25,954 bases of DNA, taken from a virus. The stretch lies in the IMG/VR virus record IMGVR_UViG_3300020188_000045, positions 1-25,954 of that record. One strand, given 5' to 3'. The first letter of the stretch is position 1. Each line of letters begins with the position of its first letter. The notes beneath the pieces are model-generated. The model did not search any database. It saw nothing but the letters and a program-made list of their open reading frames with translations, and was not told where the DNA came from. Below, one piece after another: positions 4,027 to 25,954 of this stretch. The position numbers were made by a program, and so were the translations under genes.

Positions 4027-4242
4027 ATGGCAGCATTAAACTTTCCAGCTAACCCAACAGATGGTGATATTTACGAGGGGTATGTTTGGGTAGATGCTAT
4101 TGGTGCATGGCAAATCAATGATCAGACTGCTAAAATTATAAATACTGACGGTGAGGCTGGTCAAAAGATTTATGTTGGCTCTGTTGATCCAGTTTCTGGA
4201 TATACTCTTTTTGCAGGGGATGTATGGATTGAGGTTCCATAA
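4027..4242 (+). CDS. Short DGD...W fibre-associated protein (copy 2)
   Basis: The 71-residue protein starts MAALNFPANPTDGDIYEGYVW and has GAWQIND shortly after. This clearly resembles the start of the 193-residue protein at 248 (MALDFPSSPSDGDTYDNFYW). It ends in a beta-rich segment (YVGSVDPVSGYTLFAGDVW). A strong Shine-Dalgarno, AGAAGGAG, supports the ATG. Its TAA overlaps the next ATG by one base, as in the first pair. It is likely a small adaptor or fold module for the glycine-rich adhesin encoded directly after it; the role is inferred from pairing only. Confidence 0.68.
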   Translation: MAALNFPANPTDGDIYEGYVWVDAIGAWQINDQTAKIINTDGEAGQKIYVGSVDPVSGYTLFAGDVWIEVP

Positions 4243-5147
4243 TGGCATATTCTTTTGGTAATGCTAAGGTATGGAATGGTTCTGCTTGGATACCAGCACT
4301 TCCTGGATCTGCAGTTGTCGATGAGACAGCTTCTTCTTTTGATGTAGCTGTAACAACTGGTGGTTATAGATATTTAGCTTGGACATCTACTGGTGAGCAT
4401 GATCTTGTTATTCAATCTCCAGGTCTTTTAGAAGTTTTAATGGTTGGCGGTGGCGGTGGTGGGTCTACTGGTGAATCTAGTGATAACTGTGGTGGTGGAG
4501 GTGGTGCTGGTGGTGTCATCAATGGAAGTTTTTTCTTTGATGCTGGAACCACTGTTGTTCGTGTAGGTGCTGGTGCTCCTGGAACATCAAACAGTGGTCT
4601 TGGTGGTGATGGGGAGTCGTCTTATATTGAGGGCCGTATCTATGCTGTAGGCGGTGGAGGTGGTGGTGGCACCCAGAACAAACAAGAGTATGGGTCTAAG
4701 GGTGGTTCTGGTGGTGGAGGTGCTTCATCTAGTAGTCGTCCAGGTGGTGACGGTATTCCTGGACAAGGTAATGCTGGTGGAACTGGATTCGGTGGTGACG
4801 GTGGTGGCGGTGGCGGTGGTGCTGGAGAAGCTGGCGGAGATGCAACTACAAACCAAGGTGGTCTTGGTGGAAATGGAACTAGTGCTTTCTCTGACTGGGG
4901 CAATGCATGTAGTGTCGGAGAGCTTATATTCCCAAGCACAAGGTGGTTTGCTGGCGGTGGCGGTGGAGGAGATAGAGACAGTGGCGCTGTTGATGGTGGT
5001 AACGGCGGCGGAGGTAGGGGAGAAACTGGCTCAACAATTCCTACAGCAGCATTAGCAAATACTGGTGGCGGAGGCGGTGGAGCAGAGGCAGCTTCTGTTG
5101 GCGGTGATGGTGGCTCTGGGGTAGTTATTTTTAGATACGCAGTCTAA
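4242..5147 (+). CDS. Glycine-rich tail adhesin / receptor-binding protein (copy 2)
   Basis: This 301-residue relative of the protein at 829 has the same plan. A beta-rich head (about 1-60) includes YRYLAWTSTGEHDLVIQSPG and then LLEVLMVGGGGGG. A long domain of Gly runs comes next, and the closing strand is GGDGGSGVVIFRYAV. The head differs strongly from copy 1, so the two may bind different partners or receptors. GAGG at 4231-4234 supports the start, and the overlap with the preceding gene suggests coupling. The poly-glycine domain is typical of surface-exposed phage adhesins (family knowledge); receptor binding is inferred. Its termination codon is followed by a short gap with an extended -10-like box. 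Confidence 0.72.
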   Translation: MAYSFGNAKVWNGSAWIPALPGSAVVDETASSFDVAVTTGGYRYLAWTSTGEHDLVIQSPGLLEVLMVGGGGGGSTGESSDNCGGGGGAGGVINGSFFFDAGTTVVRVGAGAPGTSNSGLGGDGESSYIEGRIYAVGGGGGGGTQNKQEYGSKGGSGGGGASSSSRPGGDGIPGQGNAGGTGFGGDGGGGGGGAGEAGGDATTNQGGLGGNGTSAFSDWGNACSVGELIFPSTRWFAGGGGGGDRDSGAVDGGNGGGGRGETGSTIPTAALANTGGGGGGAEAASVGGDGGSGVVIFRYAV

Positions 5148-5178: not shown

Positions 5179-8100
5179 ATGTCAAATCCTTCTAACCTTT
5201 ACGCAGAACAGGTTTTTTCTGAACACCCTTTAGCCCTATGGCCTCTAGACGAGACGGTAGATTATCTTTCTATCACTACTGAAAATGCTAAAGATCTTTC
5301 AAATACTTCTTCTTGGACATATTCTAACTGTTCTGTTTCTATAGATTCTTCTCAGAGTATCCCAAATAGTTCTAAGGTTGTTTATAGCATTGTTTCTGAA
5401 GATGTTTTTTCTTTTGAGATAGAGTCTCAAGATATGGTTGACACTTATCTTAATGAAGATCTTGGAAGTGTTGCTATTGGTTTTTATTGCTACCCAAATT
5501 CGCAAAACATAGAGTCTATAGAGTTTGGATACAAGTATGATGGTGTAGGTGTTCCAAGATACACCAATAGCCTTGAGCGTGTTGAGCAGGTAACCGCTTT
5601 TAATCAAGATGGTTGGCAGTTTTTACATCATACCTTTGACTTACCAGATGTTGAGCAGATTGTATTTAATGCAGATGGTCTTTCTACTACTGCTGGACCA
5701 GCAACCAAGTTTCTTCTAGCCGATCATGGATTTTCTGATGGAGATAGAATTAAGGTCGATGCGTCTTTTGATTTGCCTTTAGCACTAAACCGATACACAG
5801 AATACTTTGTTGTGAATGCAGACGATGATACTTTTGAAATAGAAGATACCGTAGGATCTGGCGGTATAAGTTTTAATAAACCAAGATTTGGAACACTTTA
5901 TGTTTTACCAGTTAAAACAATAACACCTTTTATTAGGTATAACCTTGTATATGATCAAACAATAACTACTTATGTCGGAGGGTTTGCTATAGGACAGTAT
6001 GCTGAAGAATTTTTTGATACTTCTGATGGTGTCACTGCTTCAGAAATAACTTCGGTAAATATTGATAAAGAATATTATGGCCTAGAGTCTGATCTTTACG
6101 GTCTAGAAAGTTCTCCAGGATACTATCTTGCTAGAGAAAATAAGCTATTGGCAAAAAATACTAACATGCCAATGGTTTATGGATCTTCCACAGTAACATC
6201 AATAATGCCAGAGAGATTTGGCGGACCATCGATTATTCTTCCAGGTAATGGATTCTTAAATGAGTCTGGAAGATACAGAACATACACGGTAGAGTTTTGG
6301 TTAAGAATTAATCCAGACACTAGAGAGCCAAAAAGAATATTTGGTCCAATTAGTTCAGAAGATGGAATTTATGTTGATGGACCGTTTATAACAGTTAAAA
6401 TAGGTGAAGGAATCCAGGCACACTATATTGGCGAATGGTATAGGCCAATGCTTATTAATCTTATTGTTTTTGAAAATGGGGCTTCTCTTGTTATTAATGG
6501 CGAGAAGGTTCTGGATGTATCTTTTGATACTTCCGAACTAGATCTTCCAGCAGAAACCAACCTGGCTGGCAAAAGTCAAGACTGGCTTGGCTTCTATTCA
6601 TATGAAGAAATCAGTAAGTTTGAAATAGACTGTTTTGCAATATATTCTTACCGAGTGCCATCTGCTGTCTCAAAAAGAAGGTGGGTATATGGACAGGCAG
6701 TATCATTCCCTAATGAGCTAGCATCGTCATACTTCGGAGAATCTTTTCCAATAGACTATACCCTCTCCAACTATAGCAATAACTATACTTATCCAGATAT
6801 AGCTAAATGGCAACAGGGAACTTTAGAAAACGCTTCTACTACCAACAATGTTTTATCTCCACCTTCATATTCTCTTCCAGAAATTATTTTTAACAACAAG
6901 ACGGAAGACAGCTGGTATCGTGGATTGTCAAGAATAGCATCTAACGCTATCATGATGAAGCCAGATGAATCATGGGTAGATACGGATGGATATTTGTTCT
7001 TTAATAGCGTTAGTGTTCTGAATCAAAAAACAGTAGCTTTCTATGGATTATTTGAGTCTCCAATAGGATACTCTAGTTCAGAAACTTTGTTTAGGATTGA
7101 AAACAAAACAACAAAGAATTATCTTGATGCTATGACTAATACAAGATCAAACAATGTTTCTTCAATTAGTGATACTGTAATAAATTCAGTAGGCCACGGT
7201 CTTTCAACTAACGATTTGATTTCTTTCTCTGGCTCTTTACCACCTGAAATTATAGAAAATAAAGATTATCTCGTAAATGTAATTGATGACGATAGCTTCA
7301 CGATATCTAACTCTAAAGACGGTGATCAGATATCAATTTCAACGATCACTGAAAACTCTGTTCAGTTTATTGCTAATACTATTCAGTATAAACTTTTTTA
7401 TAATAATGTCGAAGAGCTGGTTTATGAGACACCAGCTATAACAATGGGACATTCTTTTGTTGCTGGACTTAACTTCAAAGACTTTTCGAATACGTTCGGA
7501 GGGAACGTTTCAACTTTGCTAAACAATAGGGCTGATCTAAGTCTTTACCTGGCTGGTAACAAATCATTTACAAATACATTCTCTGGATATATTTATAGAA
7601 TAGGTTTTTGCACAAAGCAAAATGTTTCAGAGCTGAGCTATCTGTTTGGATCAAATGGCTTACCATTTTTAAGATACCAGTTTGATGGTGGAACTCCAGA
7701 AGAGTATATTCCAGAAGAAATAGCTAACGGTGGCTATCCATATGAAGAATACATTAACGACATTCTTTCACATAAAGCTAGCTACACTATCGGTGTAAAA
7801 GACTTTTTCGGAGAAAGATACCTAGACATAGAGACCAGTTCGTATTGGCAGGATTATATTCCTCTAAGTTATTTTGCTAAAAAGGTTAAAAATAAAAGCG
7901 GGCAAGATGAATACAGTATTGATTTTATTCAAATCAATTCTAATACCACAGTTCCAGAGACATATTTAAATGACGCATACTATACAAACGATTCGGGCAT
8001 TAGAACCTACATTTCTTTTCAAACAATATCTGGTGGAGCAACACTTTCGGCTAACTCTTTCGTAAACACCCAGTCAATAGATAGGTCAAGGCTTGTTGAG

Positions 8101-9063
8101 CCGTCCTCTGAGTGGGTAAATACCAAGTATGAGGTCGTAAATGGTTCTATTGTTTATCTGCCACCTTCAATAGATATTGAAGACACAGCCATAGTTTTAC
8201 ACATTGTCATGAAGTCTGACGGCATTATAAAGAATCCAATCAAGATTAGATCCTTACAGCTGTCTTCAAGAAGTCTCGACTCATTGATCACTAATCCAAT
8301 AAATACCAAGTTCGGTGAGCCTATGTATCCATACACAAGGTATGGCTTCTACTATGACTACAAAGCAAGAAATCCATATTTAATGTATAAAGATAGCACT
8401 CCGCATTTATACCTGACTAAAAATAGTGGAATAGAATTAACTGGATCTTTTGGTGACGCTGATCGTGGTATTGCGATGAGAATTAATAGAGAAAGACTTT
8501 CAGTATATGATCTTGCTGCAATACAAATGTCTGCAAAGTTTAATAGGGCAGATATCGTTGACTCCGATTTGCCACTACTAGAAGTTGACAGCAATAATCC
8601 AGATAATAAGATTAAGATTTTTATTAAGCCATCCAAACCATCTTCTGACAGATTTGTTCTATATGCTACAGATCAAAATGATGTAGAGGTTGATTCTGTA
8701 ATCTTTTATTTAAATGGTAGAAGGGTGCAAGCACCAACTATTTCTGTTAATGAATGGAACATGATTGGACTAGGTTTTGCCACACCTATAAGTTTTGATG
8801 GCACGGCTGGAACCATAAATATCGTCGGACCAATCCTAATCAACAACCTAACATACTATGGTCTAGATGCCTTGCAGAGAGAAAGTATTCCAATTCTAGG
8901 AGCAAATGAATATCCTGGCGTTAACTTGGAGAATGTTTATCAATTGTTTACTGGAACCAATAAGACAATATTCAGCGATGATGTTACACTCAGACCAATT
9001 GAGTATAGATATGCAGTAAATAATAATGCTTCTTTACAGTCTGCAACCATTAAACCAGTATAG
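5179..9063 (+). CDS. Large LamG-type (concanavalin-like) minor tail / fibre protein
   Basis: This 1294-residue protein is modular. It opens with SEHPLALWPLDE (about 14-25), a common lead-in to LamG or concanavalin-like lectin domains. A central segment at about 370-455 (VEFWLRINPDTREPKRIFGP ... ENGASLVINGEKVLDVSFDT) looks like a full LamG jelly roll. Two copies of a small beta module are visible: ADHGFSDGDRIKV...YFVVNADDDTFEIED (about 178-220) and VGHGLSTNDLISF...YLVNVIDDDSFTIS (about 668-710). They match the 'HGLs-GD...tFtl' domain seen in many phage tail proteins. Later parts (LRYQFDG, WNMIGLGFATP) suggest further lectin-like domains. It likely forms a tail-side fibre that binds host glycans. 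No lytic catalytic motif was seen. Confidence 0.75.
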   Translation: MSNPSNLYAEQVFSEHPLALWPLDETVDYLSITTENAKDLSNTSSWTYSNCSVSIDSSQSIPNSSKVVYSIVSEDVFSFEIESQDMVDTYLNEDLGSVAIGFYCYPNSQNIESIEFGYKYDGVGVPRYTNSLERVEQVTAFNQDGWQFLHHTFDLPDVEQIVFNADGLSTTAGPATKFLLADHGFSDGDRIKVDASFDLPLALNRYTEYFVVNADDDTFEIEDTVGSGGISFNKPRFGTLYVLPVKTITPFIRYNLVYDQTITTYVGGFAIGQYAEEFFDTSDGVTASEITSVNIDKEYYGLESDLYGLESSPGYYLARENKLLAKNTNMPMVYGSSTVTSIMPERFGGPSIILPGNGFLNESGRYRTYTVEFWLRINPDTREPKRIFGPISSEDGIYVDGPFITVKIGEGIQAHYIGEWYRPMLINLIVFENGASLVINGEKVLDVSFDTSELDLPAETNLAGKSQDWLGFYSYEEISKFEIDCFAIYSYRVPSAVSKRRWVYGQAVSFPNELASSYFGESFPIDYTLSNYSNNYTYPDIAKWQQGTLENASTTNNVLSPPSYSLPEIIFNNKTEDSWYRGLSRIASNAIMMKPDESWVDTDGYLFFNSVSVLNQKTVAFYGLFESPIGYSSSETLFRIENKTTKNYLDAMTNTRSNNVSSISDTVINSVGHGLSTNDLISFSGSLPPEIIENKDYLVNVIDDDSFTISNSKDGDQISISTITENSVQFIANTIQYKLFYNNVEELVYETPAITMGHSFVAGLNFKDFSNTFGGNVSTLLNNRADLSLYLAGNKSFTNTFSGYIYRIGFCTKQNVSELSYLFGSNGLPFLRYQFDGGTPEEYIPEEIANGGYPYEEYINDILSHKASYTIGVKDFFGERYLDIETSSYWQDYIPLSYFAKKVKNKSGQDEYSIDFIQINSNTTVPETYLNDAYYTNDSGIRTYISFQTISGGATLSANSFVNTQSIDRSRLVEPSSEWVNTKYEVVNGSIVYLPPSIDIEDTAIVLHIVMKSDGIIKNPIKIRSLQLSSRSLDSLITNPINTKFGEPMYPYTRYGFYYDYKARNPYLMYKDSTPHLYLTKNSGIELTGSFGDADRGIAMRINRERLSVYDLAAIQMSAKFNRADIVDSDLPLLEVDSNNPDNKIKIFIKPSKPSSDRFVLYATDQNDVEVDSVIFYLNGRRVQAPTISVNEWNMIGLGFATPISFDGTAGTINIVGPILINNLTYYGLDALQRESIPILGANEYPGVNLENVYQLFTGTNKTIFSDDVTLRPIEYRYAVNNNASLQSATIKPV

Positions 9064-9068
9064 TGTGA

Positions 9069-9074
9069 TATAAT
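9069..9074 (+). promoter_or_regulatory. Putative extended -10 box for a leaderless transcript (TGTGaTATAAT)
   Basis: TATAAT with TG at 9066-9067 (context TGTGA) ends exactly 6 bases before the ATG at 9081. The usual -10 to start distance puts the first transcribed base at or next to the A of the ATG. No Shine-Dalgarno exists, so a leaderless mRNA is the simplest reading. Confidence 0.6.
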
Positions 9075-9080
9075 TAAACC

Positions 9081-9449
9081 ATGAATGCTGGTAGAGAAGA
9101 TCAAATTGGTAAGTCTAAGGTCACTTTTATTGATAAAGGGTATGACTGGGGTGTCTATGTGTGGAAAAGAGCTAACGGTAAGTGGTTTACTGACGGAAGT
9201 GGAAACATTTTAAACATTCCTTCCATGAAAGGCGACATTTCTAAACTTTCTGAACTAAAACAGGCAGCTGCCTACTATGGAGAGCCAGATGGAGAACCAG
9301 TTTTCTTTGCTGGGCTAAGCAGAGTAACTGACGAAGAATACAATGAGCAGCTTGATCGAATGAAAGAGGGCCTGATTCCTAACCTTAACGATCTTGGTGC
9401 AGTACATGCTGCACAGCAGACTTTGAAGACTTATGGTGACGAGGGATAG
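9081..9449 (+). CDS. Small conserved-looking protein upstream of portal, function unknown
   Basis: The 122-residue soluble protein has no recognised catalytic motif. Residues about 10-50 (VTFIDKGYDWGVYVWKRANG and ILNIPSMKGDISK) look like a small beta domain. The rest is helical and acidic (SELKQAAAYYG, VTDEEYNEQLDRMKEG, LGAVHAAQQTLKTYGD). It lies immediately before the portal, its stop (TAG 9447-9449) abutting the portal ATG, which suggests a head-assembly or packaging-related role, though position is the only argument. The start lacks a Shine-Dalgarno, and a TATAAT box ends 6 bases upstream, indicating leaderless expression. A terminase subunit would be expected in this position in many phages, but this protein is too small and lacks ATPase motifs. 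Confidence 0.65.
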   Translation: MNAGREDQIGKSKVTFIDKGYDWGVYVWKRANGKWFTDGSGNILNIPSMKGDISKLSELKQAAAYYGEPDGEPVFFAGLSRVTDEEYNEQLDRMKEGLIPNLNDLGAVHAAQQTLKTYGDEG

Positions 9450-13632: not shown

Positions 13633-13663
13633 GGGGACGGAGCGATTGCTCCGTCCCCTTTCT
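13633..13663 (+). terminator. Rho-independent terminator after the capsid gene
   Basis: GGGGACGGAGC (13633-13643) pairs perfectly with GCTCCGTCCCC (13648-13658) around a GATT loop and is followed by TTTCT. An 11-bp GC-rich perfect stem is a strong intrinsic terminator. A new -10 box begins only 11 bases further on. Confidence 0.9.
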
Positions 13664-13673
13664 AATTTACTGA

Positions 13674-13679
13674 TATAAT
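13674..13679 (+). promoter_or_regulatory. Putative extended -10 box after the capsid terminator (TGaTATAAT)
   Basis: TATAAT preceded by TG at 13671-13672 restarts transcription directly after the terminator. The predicted first base is near 13686, within the Shine-Dalgarno AAGGAGG (13685-13691) of the next gene. The spacing thus gives a very short leader. Confidence 0.62.
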
Positions 13680-13696
13680 TGTTTAAGGAGGAAATA

Positions 13697-14056
13697 ATGC
13701 CAGGTAAAGAGCAAGCTATCAAAAACCCTGTACCAAAAAATTTTCAAAACAATACAATCACTGGTTCCAAAGGTAGTAAAAAAACTAAACAACAAGTTCT
13801 TGCCCCAGTAGCAGATGGAGCTATTGGGAGCACAGATAGGCCAATAGACACTTCTATTCAGGATAAGCCTAAAAAGGTTAAGTCTGAAAAAGAGATGGTG
13901 GCGATCTTCTCTGGAAGAAATGCCAATTGGAGTGGTGTTGGGAGAGTGTCTGTCGGATACAACATAGTGACAAGAGATGCAGCTAATGCGTGGTTAGGCA
14001 AGTCCTACATTCGTGAAGCTACACCAGAAGAAGTCGCTAGGGAATACGGAAAGTAG
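13697..14056 (+). CDS. Small post-capsid protein of unknown function
   Basis: The 119-residue protein has a basic, low-complexity first half (many Lys, Ser, Thr, Gln). A compact C-terminal domain from about residue 68 contains MVAIFSGRNANWSGVGRV, YNIVTRDAANAWL and ATPEEVAREYGK. The domain looks conserved and may bind capsid or nucleic acid, but no family can be named with certainty. ATG 13697 is preferred over an upstream in-frame TTG at 13679 because AAGGAGG lies just before it and the TTG overlaps the -10 box. Its position between capsid and connector genes suggests a head-completion, decoration or neck role (inference). Confidence 0.65.
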   Translation: MPGKEQAIKNPVPKNFQNNTITGSKGSKKTKQQVLAPVADGAIGSTDRPIDTSIQDKPKKVKSEKEMVAIFSGRNANWSGVGRVSVGYNIVTRDAANAWLGKSYIREATPEEVAREYGK

Positions 14057-14938: not shown

Positions 14939-15384
14939 TGAGTTGCGATACTAAAGATTTTCGCTTTCCAATGCAGGCGGAAGTTTACTATCCAATTATT
15001 GAGCAGGGTGCATACGGCAATGTAGCTAAGACATGGACGTTTGATAAAGTTATTGTTGGAAACTTTGTGTATGCTGGATCAAACTATAAAGAAGAAATAG
15101 ATATTAATATTGAAGTCCTAAAAGATTCTCTTCTTATTTCTAGAGTAAAAGATGACATTAGAAAGAGTTCTTTTGATGAAACGTTTGGTCTTACGAACAT
15201 TATTTTGACTAACATTAAAGACAAAAACTGTAATGAAATTTATGTTGAGTCTGATGGCCCAAGGGTAGGGAAGTCAACTCTCTTTGAGATTGCTACTTTT
15301 CAACCATTTGTTGGACCATTTGGTAGCGTAGAGTATTACAAAATGATACTTAGAAGATCTGAGAATCAGGGGTTTGATGTATGA
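14938..15384 (+). CDS. Head-completion / head-closure protein (stopper-like)
   Basis: The 148-residue beta-rich protein shows a small-barrel pattern: MQAEVYYPIIEQGAYGNVAKTW, VIVGNFVYAGS, LTNIILTNIKD and FGSVEYYKMILRR. Head-closure (stopper) proteins are of this size and follow the adaptor gene. The ATG overlaps the previous stop by one base (TAATG), and AGGAG at 14926-14930 gives a 7-base spacing. Its own stop overlaps the next gene as ATGA. The role is assigned mostly by position and size; a strong motif is lacking. Confidence 0.55.
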   Translation: MSCDTKDFRFPMQAEVYYPIIEQGAYGNVAKTWTFDKVIVGNFVYAGSNYKEEIDINIEVLKDSLLISRVKDDIRKSSFDETFGLTNIILTNIKDKNCNEIYVESDGPRVGKSTLFEIATFQPFVGPFGSVEYYKMILRRSENQGFDV

Positions 15385-16675: not shown

Positions 16676-17353
16676 ATGGCATATTCTCGTGGTCAAAGTA
16701 CCAACATTATCGTTGGTGCAGCTGCGCTATTCACTTACGAGGACGGTACGCTGATTGATGACTCTCTTCCAGCATTGGATGAGGATGTTTCTTACAAGAC
16801 AACATTGTCAACAGCACCAAACACCGACGCCTTCCGTAACGTTGGATACACCATGAACGGTCTTGAGATCGTTTTCCAGCCAGACTTCGGTGAGGTCCAG
16901 GTAGACCAGGTTTTGGACGTTGCTAAGCTTTACAAGCAGGGAATGCAGGTTAACCTTAACACTGCTTTCGCTGAGGCAACACTCGAAAACCTTCTATTCT
17001 CACTAGCTGGTAAAGAAGCCGACATCGATGCAAATGGTTCTTCCACTGCTGACGATTTCGACAACACAAAGTGGGCTGGAAACAAGGTATTGAACATGTC
17101 TGCTGGTGACATCGGTGAATGTCCAGTAGAACGTGGTTTGGTAGCCATTGGTCCAGGTACAGGTAACTGTGCAGCTTCAGAATCCATCGAGCGCATCTAC
17201 GTTGCATACCGTGCACTCTCTATCGAGAGCGTTACAGTTTCTGCAAAGCGTGATGAGCCTACTATGTACGAGGTATCGTTCCGCCTTCTTCCAGATGATG
17301 ACACAGCATCATATGGTAAGATCGTTGACCGTACACTATCTCTAATTTCATAG
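16676..17353 (+). CDS. Major tail tube protein
   Basis: The 225-residue protein begins MAYSRGQSTNIIVGAAALFTY and includes YTMNGLEIVFQPDFGEVQVD, LYKQGMQVNLNTAFAEATLENLLFSLAG-type segments, and a closing beta strand set (RALSIESVTVSAKRDEPTMY, EVSFRLLPDDD). This is the usual plan of siphovirus tail tube subunits, which stack as hexamers around the tape measure. Its codons favour AAC, TTC and GAC as in the capsid gene, fitting high expression. GAGGTGA at 16663-16669 supports the ATG. The gene is set off by its own promoter upstream and a strong terminator 15 bases downstream, so it can be transcribed as a single unit. Chaperone and tape measure genes follow in the expected order. Confidence 0.82.
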   Translation: MAYSRGQSTNIIVGAAALFTYEDGTLIDDSLPALDEDVSYKTTLSTAPNTDAFRNVGYTMNGLEIVFQPDFGEVQVDQVLDVAKLYKQGMQVNLNTAFAEATLENLLFSLAGKEADIDANGSSTADDFDNTKWAGNKVLNMSAGDIGECPVERGLVAIGPGTGNCAASESIERIYVAYRALSIESVTVSAKRDEPTMYEVSFRLLPDDDTASYGKIVDRTLSLIS

Positions 17354-17368
17354 TCTAACTAAACACAT

Positions 17369-17406
17369 AATACAGCCCAGGGCCTTGCTCTGGGCTGTAT
17401 TGTTTT
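17369..17406 (+). terminator. Rho-independent terminator after the tail tube gene
   Basis: AATACAGCCCAGGGC (17369-17383) pairs with GCTCTGGGCTGTATT (17387-17401) with a single G-T wobble and a CTT loop, followed by GTTTT. The 15-bp stem makes this a strong terminator. The next -10 box begins 3 bases after the T run. Confidence 0.9.
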
Positions 17407-17408
17407 GG

Positions 17409-17414
17409 TACAAT
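17409..17414 (+). promoter_or_regulatory. Putative extended -10 box for the leaderless long chaperone gene (TGgTACAAT)
   Basis: TACAAT preceded by TG at 17406-17407 ends exactly 6 bases before ATG 17421, the same geometry as at 9069-9081. There is no Shine-Dalgarno, so the transcript would be leaderless. The T run of the terminator overlaps its upstream edge. Confidence 0.55.
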
Positions 17415-17420
17415 GTATTA

Positions 17421-18125
17421 ATGGTAAAAAGAGTTTTTGAGACTGGATATATTAATCTTATTGATGGCACCCTTGTACAGATGGGTCCACTTAAGATTAA
17501 GTTCTATGTAGAGTTCATGTCTTATTTTAATCTAATCAAATTTGCCAAGGGTGATTTTGAGGCTATCTCTGTTCTTTCTGAGTGTGCTACTGTTTGCATG
17601 AAGCAGCACTACCCCGTTGTTCAAACGAGGGCAGATCTAGAAGAGCTTGTAGATATGCCAACCATATACAAAATTCTAGATCTTTGCTCTGGTATTAAAA
17701 TTAATCCAGATAAAGAAGAAAACATAGAAAGTCAGGCTAAAGATAATGCAGAGAAGCAGGGGTCTTGGGAAGACTTTGATCTAGTTGGCTTAGAGGCAGA
17801 AGCATTCCTTGTTGGTAGCTGGAAAAGCTTTGATGATCTAGAATCTTCTATCACTATGCCCGAACTTATAAAGATAATAGAAACCAAAAGAGAAATAGAA
17901 AATAATCAAAGAAAGTTTGACGCTGCACTACAAGGTGTTGACCTAGAAAAAGAAGAAAACAATGGTCGTGATCCTTGGGAAGAAATGAAGGCCAGAGTCT
18001 TCAGCGGTGGACAAAGTAGTGATCCAGATGATATACTTTCACTACAAGGACAAAACGCAGCAAAGGCTGGTTTTGGTATTGGTATGGGTCTTTCTTACGA
18101 ACGGGTAGATCGCAAGAAAGACTAG
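17421..18125 (+). CDS. Long tail assembly chaperone (GT-like), paralogue of the next gene
   Basis: The 234-residue protein has an N-terminal domain (about 10-95: LIDG, PLKI, FM, EC, MKQ, LEELVDMPTIYKI, CSG) that matches the short chaperone encoded at 18169 motif for motif. After a linker comes a second domain with VGSWKSFDDLESSITMPELI (131-150), KFDAALQGVDLEKEE, WEEMKARVFSGG and AAKAGFGIGMGLSYERVD. This corresponds to the T part of lambda gpGT-type chaperones, which recruit tube subunits to the tape measure. It is encoded in a single frame, with no frameshift needed. ATG 17421 is chosen because an upstream in-frame TTG (17385) lies inside the terminator hairpin. A -10 box ends 6 bases upstream and no Shine-Dalgarno is present. 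Confidence 0.75.
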   Translation: MVKRVFETGYINLIDGTLVQMGPLKIKFYVEFMSYFNLIKFAKGDFEAISVLSECATVCMKQHYPVVQTRADLEELVDMPTIYKILDLCSGIKINPDKEENIESQAKDNAEKQGSWEDFDLVGLEAEAFLVGSWKSFDDLESSITMPELIKIIETKREIENNQRKFDAALQGVDLEKEENNGRDPWEEMKARVFSGGQSSDPDDILSLQGQNAAKAGFGIGMGLSYERVDRKKD

Positions 18126-18132
18126 TTTGTGT

Positions 18133-18138
18133 TATAAT
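18133..18138 (+). promoter_or_regulatory. Putative extended -10 box for the short chaperone gene (TGtTATAAT)
   Basis: TATAAT with TG at 18130-18131 lies 7 bases after the long chaperone's stop. Transcription would start near 18145 and include the Shine-Dalgarno AAAGGAG (18151-18157) before ATG 18169. This separate promoter can set the short-form level independently. Confidence 0.62.
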
Positions 18139-18168
18139 TGTATAGTCTCAAAAGGAGAGAAAAAAATA

Positions 18169-18486
18169 ATGGCAACAAATGTAAATGAAGAAAAAACCGT
18201 AAAACTAATCGACGGTCAGGAGATTTCCCTTCGACCACTAAAAATTTCACTACTTAGACCATTCATGCAAAAGTTTGAGCAGATTCAAGAGGTGGTAAAC
18301 GATAATGAGAAATCAATGAGTATTCTTATGGAGTGCGTACAGATTGCTATGAAGCAGTACAAGCCTGAACTAGCTGAAGATCTGACTGCACTTGAAGAGA
18401 TTGTCGATCTACCAACGGTATATCGAATTGTAGAGGAAGCATCTGGAGCTAGAGTCTCCGAAGGTAGCCTCATTAATATGCAATAG
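18169..18486 (+). CDS. Short tail assembly chaperone (G-like), paralogue of the preceding gene
   Basis: The 105-residue protein MATNVNEEKTVKLIDGQEIS... shares LIDG, PLKI, FM, SILMEC, MKQ, LEEIVDLPTVYRI and ASG, in the same order and nearly the same spacing, with residues 10-95 of the upstream protein, but lacks the second domain. It therefore corresponds to the short G form of the lambda G/GT pair, made here from its own gene. ATG 18169 is chosen because a longer in-frame reading from 18127 would run through the -10 box, while AAAGGAG sits 11 bases before this ATG. No slippery heptamer was found near its end, and it stops normally at TAG 18484-18486. The tape measure follows after 14 bases. 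Confidence 0.75.
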   Translation: MATNVNEEKTVKLIDGQEISLRPLKISLLRPFMQKFEQIQEVVNDNEKSMSILMECVQIAMKQYKPELAEDLTALEEIVDLPTVYRIVEEASGARVSEGSLINMQ

Positions 18487-18500
18487 GAGAGTGCCCGTAG

Positions 18501-21500
18501 ATGGCTGACGCACAAGCCAATATTAACGTTAACCTTAATACCTCTGAGGCGTTAGCCAGTCTACGTACTTTGCAGGCTCAGATTTCCACGTTCCATCAAA
18601 CGATGGCAAAGGGAAATGCGACTGCCCTTGCTGATTCTGCTGCAATGCAGAGAAATCTTATCAATAGCATTAATGCTACTGGTAAGTTTTCTGCTACTAT
18701 GCGAACAGTTTCTACCACAACTGAATCGTTTACTCGTGCACTAGAAACAAACAAGCTCTCTATGAGAGAGTATTTCAGGTATGCTGGCGGTGCTTCTAAA
18801 ACATTCGGAAGAATGTTTAGGTCAGAGTTTGATACGATCAATAAGGTTGCCCGTGAAAGAGTAAAGACTCTTCAGACTCAGTATATTAAAATGGGTCGTG
18901 ATGCCAGCGGTGCAATGAAAGCAATGGCTGTTAGGCCATTAGCACTAGACTTAGATAATCTTGCCACTAAGACTGCTATTGCTGCTCAAAGACAGCAATT
19001 GTTTAATCAGTTGCTAAGACAGGGTTCTACAAACCTTCTAAACTTTGGTAAGAACACCCAGTGGGCTGGTCGTCAGCTTATGGTTGGTTTCACCGTCCCT
19101 CTTACTATCTTTGGTACGGTTGCTGCTAAAACATTCATGGACCTAGAAGAACAGGCTATTAGGTTTAAGCGTGTTTACGGTGAGCTATTTACTACCCAGG
19201 CTGAGACAGATCAAATGCTTGAGCAGCTGCAAACACTTGGTAGAGAGTTCACAAAATATGGCGTAGCTCTTAAAGACACCATGGAGATGGCAGCTGATGC
19301 TGCGGCTATGGGTAAGATGGGTGCAGATCTTCTTGCGCAGGTAGGCGAAGCATCCAAGCTAGCTGTCCTTGGTGGGGTAGAGCAAGAAAAAGCACTAGAA
19401 ACAACTATTTCTCTAACTAACGCATTTGGTGTAGCTGCAGATGATTTGTCAAATAAAATTGACTTCTTAAACGCAGTTGAAAACCAAACTGTTGTTAGCA
19501 TTGAAGATCTTACCACGGCTATTCCAAAAGCTGGTCCAGTAGTCAAACAGCTTGGTGGAGATGTTGAGGATCTCGCATTCTTCCTTACCGCCATGAAAGA
19601 GGGTGGAATTAATGCATCAGAGGGTGCTAACGCTCTAAAGTCTGGTTTGGCAAGGATTATTAATCCAACAGATCGAGCATCAGAAATGCTTGCTGGGCTT
19701 GGTATTAACATTAACGGAATTGTAGAAGGTAATGCTGGCGACGTAAAGGGGACTATTGTTGAACTGGCAACTGCCCTAGACACTCTAGACCCTCTCAATA
19801 AAGCAAGAGCTATTGAAGAACTATTCGGTAAGTTCCAGTTTGCTAGAATTTCAACTTTGATGCAAAACGTAATTGGCGAGGGTACACAGGCACAGCGTGT
19901 TCTACAACTAACTCAGGCAAGCACTGAAGAGCTTGCAATCCTAACTGAGCGAGAGCTTAAGCGAGTAGAGGATTCACCACTTTATAAGTTTAAGCAAGCT
20001 TTTGAAGACTTAAAGATTTCTTTGATCCCAATTGGTGAAGCATTCCTTAAAGCAGTGACACCTATTATTGAGTTTGGTGCTAGGCTGCTAGATAAGTTTG
20101 ATGCAATGAATGATGGAGCTAAAAGCTTTGTTGTTGCACTTGTTGCTGGGCTAGGCGTTATTGCCCCGACTCTTCTTATGACCGTTGGTCTTGTTGGTAA
20201 CGGTGTCGCCAACCTAATCAAATTCTTTAGCTGGATGAGTCAAATAGGCAAATCGAGTGCCAATATGACAGAGCTTGGCATGTCTACTCAGTATATGACT
20301 CAGGAACAGCTTGAAGCTAATGCTGTTGCTTCTTCGCTAAATCAGACACACACTACTCTTAGGCAAACATTTACTTCTGAGGCAGCAGCTGTTAATGCAC
20401 TGACCTTATCATACAATAAAGCAATTGCCGCACAAAGAGCATTGCTGGCAAGTGGTGGCGGAGCTAAGGTAGCTAGGGGAGCTAAGCCAGCTGGCATGGC
20501 AACGGGTGGTATCGTAAAGAAGTATGCTAAGGGCGTTACGATGGTCCCTGGTCCAAAGGGGGCTGGTGACGTTGTTCCAGCTATGCTTTCTCCAGGGGAA
20601 GCTGTTATTCCAGTTGAAGAAACTAAGAGATATTTTCCACTAATTCAAGCAATGATTGCTGGAGCTATCCCTGGCTTTGCTAATGGTTTTGATGGAGATT
20701 ACACTAAACTAGCTCAACATCTTGCTGGAAGAAAAACAAATATTACAGCAATGCGAGACTACCTTGCTACTAGCGGTTTAAGTAAGGATTTTTTAAATCA
20801 GCTCGCTAACAGTAAGGCTGGATCTGTAACAAAAATTGGAGATTTGCAAAAGCTAACAAGCAGCTTCATGAAGTCATCTGGCAGCATGGATTTTTCTCAC
20901 ACAAGATCTGCCACAAGAATTAGTCTTTCCGATGCTTCAAAGTTTAGTGGTGCTGCTGGTGCAAGAGCACAAGAAATGATAAAGGCTGGTGGAACAACTG
21001 AAACAACTAACCCAAGAATCTACTCTTCTTGGGGTTTCATGGGCGATAGAGATTTAAATAAAGCATCTGGATCACTGGGTGGTGCAAATCTATCGGCCTA
21101 TGCTGCTGCAACTAAGAATGTTACACCAGAGCAAATGTGGGGTCGTGCGTTCCAAGCTGGCGGTGCAGACATATTTGGTAAAGATTCTCCAGCCATGAAG
21201 GCTTTTGGAAAAGCTTTTCAAGGAGAAATGGATAAAGCTGCAAAAACTTTTGAAAAGGTTTTTGACACAGATGCAAGACTGAATAAAGCTCTTGAGAGAA
21301 ATCCAGCTCTTAAGGCAACAAGCCTAGAAGATATTGAGCGTAAAGCAATGCAAAGGCTTCCAGCTCAGTATAAGGCACAGGTTGCTGGAGTTCAGGCAAA
21401 AGCTTTACAAACTCCAGCCCCAGGTGCAACTGCAGTTAAGTTTAACCCTACAGCCGAGTTGAGACAGCAGCTTGCAAAACTATTTCCAAAGGAAAGCAAG

Positions 21501-24500
21501 TATGTTAGACAGGGTGGGTCTGGAAAGCTTGTTACTGGCGGAATGGCTCTGGGTGTAAATAAATCAGACAGGACTTTGTTTGGAAAGCTAATTGCTAAAG
21601 ATCTCAATGTTAGAGAAGAAGCCATTGCTGCTCAAGAGGAAGATACAAAGGTTGTTAGAAAAGGGACTGAGCAGAAAAAGGATACTGGAAAGAAGGCTGT
21701 TAAGGCTAGCAAGGCATCTGCTAAGGCTGCTCAGACTAGAGTCGTTGATGGTAGAGAGCAGGTTTTCCGAGGCGGTAAATGGGTTGATAAAGTAAGAAGC
21801 GACGCTGCACAAAGAGCAAATCAAGAAAGGGCTGCAAGGACACAAGAAGCAGATCAGAAGAGAGAAGCTCGTAATGCTAGAAGAAGAGAGCTTTATGCCC
21901 AAAGAAAGGCTGCACAGCAAGTTCCAGCCCCAGATGCTGCAGAACAAAGAAGAGCACCTGGCATGGGCGGCGGTGGCAGGATGGGTATCGGTATGGCTGT
22001 TTCTTCAGCTGCTATTGCTGCTTCAATGGCTCCTGGTAAGGTTGGAGAAGTAGGTCAATCTCTTATTATGCCAGCTATTGTTGCTAGCTCATTGTTAATG
22101 CTACCGCCAAAAATTATGGTAGTTGTTGGTGCACTATCTCTTGCTGGATTCTCTATTTATAAAATGGTTGATGCTTTTAAGAGTGCATCAAAAGAAGCTA
22201 TGACTTTGGCAGAAGAGCTTGGGGTAGGTTCTAAGTCTATGGATAGACTGTCAGAGTTTGCTGGAAATGTTACAGCCAGTCAAATTATGAACAAGAGAAG
22301 GGCAGAAGGCTTTGCCCCATATCAGATTCAACCAGGTAAGCAAACATTTGGTTCAGCCTTCTTGGGATCTGAAGCTGGAACAGAACTAAAAGATTCTATA
22401 TCTAAAGCACTTGAGTCACAAGATCTACAGGCAGTACAACAACAAATTGTTAATCAGATGACAACTGCTATTGCTACTGGAGCACTTAACGCAGCACAGG
22501 CAAGAAGCATAGTTTATGAGCTTGGTAAAGAGCTAGGCGATTATTCTTTTGCTATCAATGTTAATGGTAAACTAACTCAGCTAATTGGGCCTAACGGAGA
22601 GAATTTGCTTAATGACCCGCTTGGCGTAAGGCTTGAGATCATGCAAGAGTCTGTTGATGCAGTAGAAAGCTCATTTGAGGCAATCGACGCATCAGGAGTC
22701 GGAGCTAGGCTTGGAACAAAGATAGGTCTCGGTGCGGCTGCAACTGTGGCTGGCGTTTGGGGCGGAGCAGCGATTGGAGCTAAAATTGGTGCTGCTGTTG
22801 GAACTGCCATCACCCCAGGAATTGGAACAGCCATCGGAGTGCTTGCTGGTGCAGCTCTAGGGGTTGGTGTAACCGCAGCTATTAGCGTAGCTGATTTTGA
22901 AAAGATTGGAAACCTTTCTGGTGCCGCTATTGCTAACTCCGTAATGCTTGTTCAGCAAAGGCAGGATATTCTTGATTCTCTTGATATTGAGTATGAAAAG
23001 AGAATTGCGGCAGCGACAGCGGCGGGGGATACTGCTGAAGCAGATAGGTTAACCAACCAATACCTTGAGGAAAGACAGCAGTTCCTTGAACAAACTGGTC
23101 AAGCAATTAGCGATGTAGCTTCTCAGATTGCCAATGCCCCGTCATTCCTCGGCCTGTTTGGGGAAAAGCCAGCAATGCTTGATGCACTAAATGATGCAAT
23201 TAAGATGGCCTATGAAGATAACCCACTTGCTCAAATGATGGCCATGGGTGTTCAAGAACAAATCAAAGACATTGACTTTGGAGCAACAGAAAGAGAAGTA
23301 ACCCTTTCTCTACTTCTTGCTTCAAAGGATATTGACCCAGCAGCACTTAGCGGCTTTTTAGCAACATTCGGCGGTGACACTGCAACAATAGATACTTTTA
23401 TTGACATTACAACCAACCTCGGTGGTGCAGAGGGTGGCAGAGTTCTTCAGGTAATGAATCTTTTTGAAGATGATGTCAATAAGACTCAGTTCCTTGCAGA
23501 TGTAAAAGCTAGGGGTGCAAATGCAGCTGGATTCTTGGATGCATTCCAGCAGATTGCTCAGACAGCAGCGGGTGGTCAGGTAGACCTTCAAGCTTCCCTT
23601 GATTTCTATCTAAATAATCCAGAACTTCTTCAAGATTACGAACAAGATATGCAAAGGCTTAGAGCACAGGCAGCAGCAGGACCAATATCTCAGGACTTTA
23701 TTATTAACTATATTGGAGAAAACGTTGCGGATATTATTGCCACAGATCAGGCATATTTTGATTCCCTTGACCCAGTTCAGCAGGTAACGTATATTCAAAC
23801 TGTTAGAACCATTTATGAAACATATGGAGAAAACTTTAGAGAAACTCCAGCCTTTGTTTCTTGGAGAAGAAGCCAGCCTTCTAGTGTTCCAGATGAAGGA
23901 TTCTTTACCCAGTCAGCTAATCAGCTGACACAGGCACCAGCCCTAGCACCTGGAGGAGCAGAAGAGCTTGCCCCAGAACCACAGGGCGGAGGCTCAAAAG
24001 ATCAGTCTAGCATTCTTGACGATGTTCTCAAGAAACTTCGTGATTATAGAGATCTTCAGGTAGGTATTCTAAAGGGCTGGAAGAATATTTCTACTAAGCT
24101 TGAAGAGCTTTTTGGTGGAGATGCTGGTATTTCTGGATTCCGTGGACTCTCACAACAGATGAGAGATATTGGACTCGGTGAAAATTTCATTGAGATGATT
24201 GTTGGAATGAGTCCAGAAGACTACGAGAAGTATAAGGACTCTTTGTTTGTATTTGATGACAAGGGTAATCTTGCTGGCATTACCACAGAAGCTAGAGCAT
24301 TAGCTAAAGCATTAGATGCGATCACTCTTGGAGAGTTCCAAAACGAACAAGAATCAACCCTTATTAGTATGCAAAAGCAGGTTGCTGCAGCTAGAAAACT
24401 TGTTTCTGCTGGACTTGACTGGTCACAAGCTTACGAGATGGCTGCAGATGCAGGACTTGCCGCTGCTATTGTTGCGGAGCAAAATCTCAATAATATTCGT

Positions 24501-25954
24501 GAACTCGTAAATCTTGTTAGGCAAACAGAGAGAATGACTGCAGATCAGGCTGCAGCTTCGGCAGTAGCTACAGCTAATTCTGCAACAGCTAATCTTCGTA
24601 AAGTGCAAGAATTTATTGCCAAGAATTCTTCAGCATTGACAGATCGTCAAAAAGAAGCAATTCTGAACGATGAAGATCTTCAAAGACTTGTTCTGAATCC
24701 ATCAATCAATCCTGAAGTTTTGAGACAAGCTCTTAGAGATGCAGAAAATGCTGCACAGCTTGATCTCGAAATCAAGAAAATGACTTTCACTGGTTTGCAG
24801 GAAATCTTCACAGATGGCTTTGGCAAGGCGATGGAAGCTTTCGCTGCCAAAGAGCAGCAAATTGATATTGATTTCCAATTTTCGACTGCCTCTGACCAGG
24901 CTATTATTCAGGCAGCAGAAAGGCAGATATCAGACATTAGATATCTCGTTGATGATCTTGAGGCAGATCTTACTCGCATTAGATATCAAGAAGATGAAAT
25001 CAATAAGAGGTATAAGGATAGGCTGGATGCTCTTAATGAGGTTGCCGATATTAATGAGAAGCTTTCTGCACAGCAAGAGGCACAGCTAACCGTAGCCGAT
25101 GCTCTGTCCCGTGGTGATATTTCTGCTGCCGCAAGAGCAGCTCAAGAATATAGGCAACAACTTGCACAAGATAATGCTACTCAGCAAAGAGATGACCTTA
25201 CACGTCAAAAAGATATTGAGCTTGCAGCTGTGCGTGGACAGATGGGTATGTCTAGGTCACAAATTGAGGCACAGATCCTTGAATATCAGAAGCAAATCCT
25301 TGAAATTGAAGAGTCTCAGCTTGAGCCAGCACAGCAAAGAGTTACCCTTGCCGAAAGACTTAAGATGGATGCCATCGCTAGCCTTGAGATTCTTGGTAAG
25401 ACAAGGCTTGAGTGGGAGGCTGTTAAGAACAGGGTAGACTTAGCAGTAACCAGCAGCGAAGATTATATTAACGCTATGAGGGAAGCTCTTGGTGTAGTTC
25501 AGGATATTGTTACATATTGGGATAGTATTGATAATCAGTCTAATAAAGATTTGTTTGTCAACGTAAGAATGAACACTCAAGAGTTTGATAACCTTCCGAT
25601 ACCTCTTGCTGATGGGGCACAGCCTCTCTCCGATTCAAGCGGCAGCGGCAGTGCAACACCAGAGCCAGAGCCAGTGGTGACTCCACCAGCTTCTGCCGTA
25701 AATGTTAGCACATCAAGAGATTCTGTTTCTATTTCTAGCAGTTTGCAGGAAGAAGAGGGAGCGATCGAGGGATGGTTTAATAACCTTACAAACCAAGGAT
25801 GGTTTAAGAGTCTTCAGGCTATCGGAATTGTCTTTGGACAAAAGGTACAAGAAGGATTTACAAATATCGGTGAGACTATAGATCAAAATATCATTCAGCC
25901 AATAAAAGATAAGTGGAATGAATTTGCAACTTGGGTTGATACAAATGTGATTCA
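18501..25954 (+). CDS. Tail tape measure protein, very large, 3' end outside window
   Basis: The frame stays open from ATG 18501 (AGGAGAG at 18485-18491) to the window edge, giving at least 2484 residues. Residues about 212-520 are the TP901-type core of tape measure proteins (FMDLEEQAIRFKRVYGE, TMEMAADAAAMGKMGADLL, TAIPKAGPVVKQLGGD). Hydrophobic segments lie at about 543-565, and a glycine motif VPGPKGAGDVVPAMLSPGEA is at 682-701. Residues about 1157-1227 are hydrophobic, and about 1409-1463 are a Gly/Ala-zipper region. From about 2120 the protein is helical and Gln/Glu-rich (coiled coil-like), ending in a Ser/Pro linker (about 2376-2400) and another hydrophobic-amphipathic part. The protein sets tail length and can help open the membrane. 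Roughly residues 740-1150 hold an inserted region of unknown function, basic and Lys/Arg/Ala-rich at its end. Confidence 0.9.
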   Translation, partial: MADAQANINVNLNTSEALASLRTLQAQISTFHQTMAKGNATALADSAAMQRNLINSINATGKFSATMRTVSTTTESFTRALETNKLSMREYFRYAGGASKTFGRMFRSEFDTINKVARERVKTLQTQYIKMGRDASGAMKAMAVRPLALDLDNLATKTAIAAQRQQLFNQLLRQGSTNLLNFGKNTQWAGRQLMVGFTVPLTIFGTVAAKTFMDLEEQAIRFKRVYGELFTTQAETDQMLEQLQTLGREFTKYGVALKDTMEMAADAAAMGKMGADLLAQVGEASKLAVLGGVEQEKALETTISLTNAFGVAADDLSNKIDFLNAVENQTVVSIEDLTTAIPKAGPVVKQLGGDVEDLAFFLTAMKEGGINASEGANALKSGLARIINPTDRASEMLAGLGININGIVEGNAGDVKGTIVELATALDTLDPLNKARAIEELFGKFQFARISTLMQNVIGEGTQAQRVLQLTQASTEELAILTERELKRVEDSPLYKFKQAFEDLKISLIPIGEAFLKAVTPIIEFGARLLDKFDAMNDGAKSFVVALVAGLGVIAPTLLMTVGLVGNGVANLIKFFSWMSQIGKSSANMTELGMSTQYMTQEQLEANAVASSLNQTHTTLRQTFTSEAAAVNALTLSYNKAIAAQRALLASGGGAKVARGAKPAGMATGGIVKKYAKGVTMVPGPKGAGDVVPAMLSPGEAVIPVEETKRYFPLIQAMIAGAIPGFANGFDGDYTKLAQHLAGRKTNITAMRDYLATSGLSKDFLNQLANSKAGSVTKIGDLQKLTSSFMKSSGSMDFSHTRSATRISLSDASKFSGAAGARAQEMIKAGGTTETTNPRIYSSWGFMGDRDLNKASGSLGGANLSAYAAATKNVTPEQMWGRAFQAGGADIFGKDSPAMKAFGKAFQGEMDKAAKTFEKVFDTDARLNKALERNPALKATSLEDIERKAMQRLPAQYKAQVAGVQAKALQTPAPGATAVKFNPTAELRQQLAKLFPKESKYVRQGGSGKLVTGGMALGVNKSDRTLFGKLIAKDLNVREEAIAAQEEDTKVVRKGTEQKKDTGKKAVKASKASAKAAQTRVVDGREQVFRGGKWVDKVRSDAAQRANQERAARTQEADQKREARNARRRELYAQRKAAQQVPAPDAAEQRRAPGMGGGGRMGIGMAVSSAAIAASMAPGKVGEVGQSLIMPAIVASSLLMLPPKIMVVVGALSLAGFSIYKMVDAFKSASKEAMTLAEELGVGSKSMDRLSEFAGNVTASQIMNKRRAEGFAPYQIQPGKQTFGSAFLGSEAGTELKDSISKALESQDLQAVQQQIVNQMTTAIATGALNAAQARSIVYELGKELGDYSFAINVNGKLTQLIGPNGENLLNDPLGVRLEIMQESVDAVESSFEAIDASGVGARLGTKIGLGAAATVAGVWGGAAIGAKIGAAVGTAITPGIGTAIGVLAGAALGVGVTAAISVADFEKIGNLSGAAIANSVMLVQQRQDILDSLDIEYEKRIAAATAAGDTAEADRLTNQYLEERQQFLEQTGQAISDVASQIANAPSFLGLFGEKPAMLDALNDAIKMAYEDNPLAQMMAMGVQEQIKDIDFGATEREVTLSLLLASKDIDPAALSGFLATFGGDTATIDTFIDITTNLGGAEGGRVLQVMNLFEDDVNKTQFLADVKARGANAAGFLDAFQQIAQTAAGGQVDLQASLDFYLNNPELLQDYEQDMQRLRAQAAAGPISQDFIINYIGENVADIIATDQAYFDSLDPVQQVTYIQTVRTIYETYGENFRETPAFVSWRRSQPSSVPDEGFFTQSANQLTQAPALAPGGAEELAPEPQGGGSKDQSSILDDVLKKLRDYRDLQVGILKGWKNISTKLEELFGGDAGISGFRGLSQQMRDIGLGENFIEMIVGMSPEDYEKYKDSLFVFDDKGNLAGITTEARALAKALDAITLGEFQNEQESTLISMQKQVAAARKLVSAGLDWSQAYEMAADAGLAAAIVAEQNLNNIRELVNLVRQTERMTADQAAASAVATANSATANLRKVQEFIAKNSSALTDRQKEAILNDEDLQRLVLNPSINPEVLRQALRDAENAAQLDLEIKKMTFTGLQEIFTDGFGKAMEAFAAKEQQIDIDFQFSTASDQAIIQAAERQISDIRYLVDDLEADLTRIRYQEDEINKRYKDRLDALNEVADINEKLSAQQEAQLTVADALSRGDISAAARAAQEYRQQLAQDNATQQRDDLTRQKDIELAAVRGQMGMSRSQIEAQILEYQKQILEIEESQLEPAQQRVTLAERLKMDAIASLEILGKTRLEWEAVKNRVDLAVTSSEDYINAMREALGVVQDIVTYWDSIDNQSNKDLFVNVRMNTQEFDNLPIPLADGAQPLSDSSGSGSATPEPEPVVTPPASAVNVSTSRDSVSISSSLQEEEGAIEGWFNNLTNQGWFKSLQAIGIVFGQKVQEGFTNIGETIDQNIIQPIKDKWNEFATWVDTNVI

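Follow-up and report, generated by a model that had tools for sequence, protein, structure and literature searches.

The virus record analysed here (IMG/VR IMGVR_UViG_3300020188_000045) is 25,954 bases long, and this whole stretch is referred to as the window. It contains two adjacent genes for tail assembly chaperones, which quite probably constitute a two-gene siphovirus equivalent of lambda gpG and gpGT, in which the frameshift has been replaced and the ratio of the two forms is most likely set at initiation. By sequence, the N-terminal domain is common to both products, and the long product has an extra C-terminal domain. The pair is located between the major tail protein gene and the tape measure gene, as in the G/GT arrangement of lambda-type phages (Table 1). 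According to the available part of one account of lambda, gpG and gpGT are made at a ratio of 30:1, the G part binds the tape measure protein and the T part binds the major tail protein; the same text describes the chaperone frameshift as widely conserved in long-tailed dsDNA phages, with the exception of T4 (PMC5009743).

Table 1. The chaperone genes of the window, their start signals and the two flanking genes.
Feature	Position	Strand	Basis
Major tail protein gene (context)	16676..17353	+	phrog_2175 'protein with Ig domain' E=9e-29; weak phrog_117 E=0.0016; position matches the major tail protein of annotated Streptomyces phages
Terminator-like hairpin, 11-bp stem 17370-17380 / 17390-17400, T-rich tail	17370..17406	+	Stem checked; shorter version from scan
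Extended -10 box TGGTACAAT, exactly 6 nt 5' of the long ATG, leaderless-type start	17406..17414	+	Sequence pattern
Long tail assembly chaperone, N and C domains in one frame, 234 aa	17421..18125	+	phrog_10504 at 1-107, phrog_10474 at 134-192
Extended -10 box TGTTATAAT of the short gene	18130..18138	+	TGnTAnnnT pattern
Shine-Dalgarno AAGGAG of the short gene	18152..18157	+	Sequence match
Short tail assembly chaperone, N domain only, 105 aa	18169..18486	+	phrog_10504 E=3e-17
Tape measure protein gene (context), ATG 18501, open at window end	18501..25952	+	phrog_10030 tail length tape measure E=5e-100, first 1166 aa

A preliminary description, made from the bases of the window, had proposed that a long chaperone gene in one continuous frame is followed by a separate short paralogue, and this layout was confirmed, with ATG and stop codons of both genes at the ends given in Table 1 and the long gene 5' of the short one. 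The N-domains of the two proteins were aligned from end to end with 36 identities in 97 positions (37%, E=2e-19), and the shared motifs that had been listed (LIDG, PLKI, FM, EC, MKQ, LEE-VD-PT-Y, and SG) were all present in that order in the alignment. When the short protein was used as a query over the window, matches were obtained at the long and short genes only. The profile search that the description had recommended placed both N-domains in phrog_10504, which was matched by 49/49 long and 49/49 short representatives, while phrog_10474 was matched by 49/49 long representatives. Structure prediction was in agreement, as the two N-domains share one predicted order of elements, two strands followed by helices (AlphaFold mean pLDDT of 81 for the short and 73 for the long protein). 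The two N-domains are thus similar, and homologous by sequence. In addition, the halves of the long gene are homologous to the 0-frame and -1-frame halves of the Streptomyces phage chaperones (hhalign 100%, E=2.9e-49 for the N half), and 10-44 nt separate the short stop codon from the tape measure start at the 192 loci that yielded both. Comparison with the HK97 chaperone 2ob9 gave weak scores (Z 4.6 over 82 residues for the short model, in the second row and tied with unrelated helical proteins; Z 4.2 over 85 residues for the long model). Foldseek gave no match to the short model at E<=0.001, a PDB profile search with the short profile returned nothing meaningful, and hhalign found no similarity to HK97 gp13. 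Because these fold and HK97 comparisons were weak or empty, the identification as chaperones rests on synteny and on the annotated Streptomyces homologues.

Relatives were collected by scanning IMG/VR with single proteins and with profiles of each half. The best 80 loci were kept per scan (12 in one), so the locus counts are not frequencies in nature. A contig found in several scans was counted each time among the loci, and certain IMG/VR records duplicate named Streptomyces phages; the counts called distinct are by sequence. Profile HMMs were used to classify 340 entries, comprising the IMG/VR loci, the window, two slices of the window and named phages. Among the matches listed, an unbroken long frame with N and C domains together was found at 209 loci (135 distinct long genes, the window and its two slices included), and a short N-only gene lay downstream of the fused gene at 204 of them. 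The five others (L072, L203, L232, L242, and L244) end about 225 nt or less past the long match. At 129 of the loci listed (95 distinct, named Streptomyces phages included), the C part follows a single N gene in the -1 frame, and the remaining two entries end at the N gene. None of the 340 entries had both layouts in one locus. The survey of related phages suggested at the outset therefore indicated that the two-gene layout is conserved.

Two apparent exceptions were rejected. A stop between the N and C parts was suspected in 16 loci; in the 15 that were read, the alignment had overrun the true stop, and the profile classification placed all 16 in the unbroken class. An intermediate with two N-domains before a shifted C part seemed to be present in L194-L196, and this was found to be one N-domain with an insertion; L194, L195, and L196 are frameshift-type chaperones with an insertion in the N-domain. 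In L226 (263-1204), the long frame has no stop where the others end and continues for 194 nt inside the short gene, which may be a sequencing error or a real fusion.

The named relatives were all Streptomyces phages, with 63 records matched by the short query and 127 by the long query in tblastn, at one place each. A tblastn comparison with 50,697 named phage records (E<=0.01) gave no tandem-type phage, so no cultured tandem-type phage is at hand. The bases of Annadreamy, Faust, Genie2, Coruscant, and Karimac show one gene for the N-domain, with the C-domain downstream of it in the -1 frame, and in the TunaTartare record the frameshift is annotated as a joined CDS. Two N-domain copies were present in each of nine tandem records of 65-125 kb and one in each of three frameshift records; these records may be incomplete. 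A gene for the actinobacterial protein WhiB was detected in 10 of these 12 records, the two without it being the two shortest, and a WhiB search over 14 control genomes gave a match in Corynebacterium only. Because of WhiB, an actinobacterial host is likely. A scan of genome contigs with the long protein, sensitive to close relatives only, revealed no prophage or host copy.

The preliminary description had stated that the two genes stand in place of a frameshift, and the relatives bear this out, since they encode these two domains in frames 0 and -1 and carry CCCAAAC-type slip sites. A phased X-XXY-YYZ heptamer was present at the overlap in 85/95 distinct frameshift loci, compared with 4.1% of 4750 same-length control windows of the same G genes. 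Most of these heptamers were CCCAAAC or CCCAAAT, with few GGGAAAC or AAATTTA; the CCCAAA/GGGAAA type was found at the overlap of 83/95 distinct loci versus 0% of the control windows. The other 10 loci are Karimac-like, with CCCGGAA and no canonical heptamer. In these loci (L005, L006, L007, L179-L184, and L262), CCCGGAA lies where the -1 overlap starts or close to it and is a possible unusual slip site. It might be argued that frameshifting or processing of the long gene continues to supply some short form and that the second gene merely tops it up. Some phased heptamer was indeed present near the N-C junction in 20/135 distinct fused long genes; however, this did not exceed the rate over the rest of these genes (control 21%), CCCAAAx or GGGAAAx occurred near the junction in 0/135 distinct fused genes, compared with the 83/95 of the frameshift relatives, and the long gene of the window has no phased X-XXY-YYZ heptamer anywhere. 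The sign of a frameshift that would have spoken against two separate genes is thus absent from the long gene, and we regard residual frameshifting or processing as very improbable.

The layouts and the slip sites in the relatives suggest that a frameshift gene was replaced by fused long and short genes, probably once. The C-domain tree was built from 92 of 151 reduced rows and given a midpoint root for drawing only; in it, one branch (support 72, not starred) separated the tandem rows from the frameshift rows, those of Streptomyces phages included. If the root lies among the frameshift rows, frameshifting was ancestral and was lost once. Two N-domain trees were also built, the first with 96 of 186 reduced rows, and the second with 96 rows after six long-branch rows were omitted and 25 long and 25 short proteins were sampled. 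The long proteins formed one clade on a long branch (support 100, starred, in both trees), and the short proteins formed one clade as well (95, starred, in the second tree; 89 in the first). A topology in which long and short proteins are held together was not rejected (p-AU 0.886). These separate clades, together with the 37% identity in the window, indicate that the long and short proteins have diverged for a long time, and this would suit a short paralogue that has become a helper with a new job, such as binding or capping a region of the tape measure, while the long protein alone performs the old roles of both G and GT. However, the short clade was nearer to some frameshift G proteins than the long clade was in the second N-domain tree, and the short gene has the promoter-leader-Shine-Dalgarno arrangement of the G gene. 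A new job for the short paralogue is therefore rather unlikely. Support in the C-domain tree for one origin of the two-gene layout is modest (72).

The start signals of the two genes differ. The long copy had been described as having a leaderless-type start, and the short copy as having its own extended -10 and a good Shine-Dalgarno; these signals were all found in the window, where no Shine-Dalgarno precedes the long gene (Table 1). The pattern TGNTAYAMTN6ATG occurs twice in the window versus 0.05 times expected from shuffling. A generic sigma-70 scan that required a -35 box listed neither chaperone promoter. The top match of that scan, at 18008-18037 (TGGACA-18-TATACT, with TG before the -10), lies within the C part of the long gene and may be a further promoter for the short gene or a chance occurrence (14 sites found vs 21.7 expected).

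The same signals were counted across the relatives. Starts were anchored by the profiles. A start was retained if 90 nt or more of sequence preceded it and its codon coincided with profile position 1 or was no more than two codons away; counted once per distinct sequence, this gave 110 distinct upstreams from 207 long starts, 113 from 202 short starts and 83 from 127 G starts. In the 110 distinct long genes, among the matches listed, the start was ATG in 110/110 and a Shine-Dalgarno 4-mer was found in 0/110. TAnnnT ending 5-8 nt before the ATG was present in 106/110, with TGnTAnnnT exactly 6 nt before the ATG in 77; in the other four, the box is farther upstream than 5-8 nt. Each of the 110 also had a terminator-like hairpin within 90 nt upstream, versus 4/110 shuffled sequences. 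In the 113 distinct short genes, a Shine-Dalgarno of four or more bases was found in 112 and TGnTAnnnT at 20-40 nt upstream in 112, with a close box in 0 and a hairpin in 2. The 83 distinct frameshift G genes had a Shine-Dalgarno in 83, TGnTAnnnT at 20-40 nt in 77, a close box in 0, a hairpin in 74 and a TTG start in 37, so that the start signals of the frameshift genes resemble those of the short gene. A BLAST-anchored count gave TGnTAnnnT at 5-8 nt in 88/103 long upstreams. In that count, a Shine-Dalgarno appeared in 2/103 entries taken as long and a close box in 8/110 taken as short; these exceptions were due to cross-hits between the paralogues (2 long-query matches on short genes and 17 short-query matches on long genes), and the profile-anchored count contained neither a long gene with a Shine-Dalgarno nor a short gene with a close box. 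The absence of a Shine-Dalgarno alone is not diagnostic, because the gene at 15381, one of nine other genes counted in the tandem loci, has one in 3/39 upstreams only.

TANNNT about 12 nt before the start has been described as the mark of leaderless genes, which make up on average 19% of genes in Actinobacteria, according to the portion of that study available (PMC3160421). The long gene of the window has its -10 box at about this distance and no Shine-Dalgarno. Two other sites in the window have related signals. TGATATAAT is located exactly 6 nt before the ATG of the ORF at 9081-9449 (span 9066-9449; phrog_9394, unknown function, just 5' of the portal gene), which would be a second leaderless-type start. 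At 13633-13700, a strong terminator-like hairpin is directly followed by TGATATAAT, AAGGAGG, and ATG (13698). This order of terminator, promoter and leader is the layout of the frameshift G genes, and because of it the listed TTG start at 13679 is probably wrong.

The contrast in start signals might nevertheless be a by-product of a common leaderless promoter type, with no role in the ratio, even if the two-gene reading is right. TGNTAYAMTN6ATG occurred 95 times in 13 records of these phages, versus 5 times for a reversed control pattern. Leaderless-type starts are thus in general use in the group, in frameshift phages as well; each record, whether tandem or frameshift, has 2 to 15 such boxes, and the long gene is therefore not alone in using them. 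Against this, the box at 5-8 nt was found in 106/110 long and 0/113 short genes, and TGnTAnnnT at that distance in 0/396 distinct upstreams of nine other head and tail genes in the tandem loci. A mere by-product is on balance unlikely, though it deserves more weight than the two alternatives considered above. A leaderless-type long gene is consistently paired with a short gene that has a Shine-Dalgarno, and this points to a concrete and testable replacement for the frameshift.

From these features we infer transcript starts, leaderless translation, a protein ratio and binding roles for the two chaperones. The short product would be the equivalent of lambda gpG and the long product that of gpGT. 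An ancestral single gene would have made the long form by -1 frameshifting until two genes took its place: an upstream copy with the N and C domains joined in one frame, whose translation would give the long form, and a downstream copy cut to the N domain, which would give the short form. By analogy with lambda, the N domains may coat the tape measure, and the scarce long form may recruit the major tail protein through its C domain. The hairpin would separate the chaperone genes from the major tail protein gene. The long gene would be transcribed from its own extended -10 promoter, with an mRNA starting at or near the ATG and no Shine-Dalgarno, while the short gene would have a second extended -10 promoter and a Shine-Dalgarno and would also be carried on the transcript of the long gene. 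A message reading through the hairpin would offer no ribosome site for the long gene and a good one for the short gene. More short than long form would be expected, because of the hairpin, the ribosome sites of the read-through message and the presence of the short gene on both transcripts, and the start signals may thus set the ratio. Leaderless messages can be well translated in Actinobacteria. For this reason, and because such starts are common in these phages, it is not assured that leaderless means scarce. The fuller proposal is therefore tentative and falls somewhat short of probable: that in a large, presumably actinobacterial phage clade the frameshift control of the ratio was replaced, probably once, by duplication and a switch of translation mode, the leaderless scarce form and the Shine-Dalgarno abundant form doing the counting of the slippery site.

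Several other features of the window were recorded. Two related fibre-like genes at 829-1785 and 4242-5147, both with Gly_rich_2 domains and both in phrog_2295, flank genes for a glycosyltransferase and an Mtd_N-collagen protein. Between the fibre-like genes and the portal, an ORF of 1294 aa at 5179-9063 had no PHROG or Pfam match at E<=0.001.

In lambda (gpG/gpGT) and HK97 (gp13 and its frameshift product), a short N form and a long N-C form are likewise made at one locus (available part of PMC5009743; HK97 record). However, their long form arises by a -1 frameshift at a slippery site, compared with a continuous frame and no phased heptamer here, and the likeness to HK97 gp13 is limited to a weak similarity of fold. 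Lambda-type chaperones have the short form in large excess, and neither form belongs to the virion. A two-gene solution is already known, as the accessible text of PMC10885494, citing Vladimirov et al. (2022), reports that some T4-like phages have a short gene and a longer fusion gene instead of frameshifting. The likeness lies in a separate short gene and a fused long gene. Searches of open PubMed Central papers, with passages of PMC12859696, PMC12846349, and PMC5679792, revealed no description of a two-gene chaperone in siphoviruses of Actinobacteria or of the leaderless/Shine-Dalgarno pairing. The long gene resembles the 'TA-led' genes of Actinobacteria, as set out in the part of PMC3160421 consulted, in having a TANNNT box some 12 nt ahead of the start and in lacking a Shine-Dalgarno; it differs in being a phage assembly gene, predicted to be leaderless, that is paired with a Shine-Dalgarno paralogue. 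The closest known systems are those of the Stanwilliamsviridae Streptomyces phages (Annadreamy, Faust, TunaTartare, Karimac, Genie2, and Coruscant), which have homologous N and C domains, the same gene neighbours and, as here, a terminator and a promoter upstream of the chaperone. They differ in having one gene, at one place per record, whose long form is made by a -1 frameshift and whose G start has a Shine-Dalgarno. Frameshift and two-gene layouts thus occur within one homologous family with the same gene neighbours, which provides a natural comparison of how the ratio is set and allows one to ask what the frameshift is needed for and how the ratio survives its loss.
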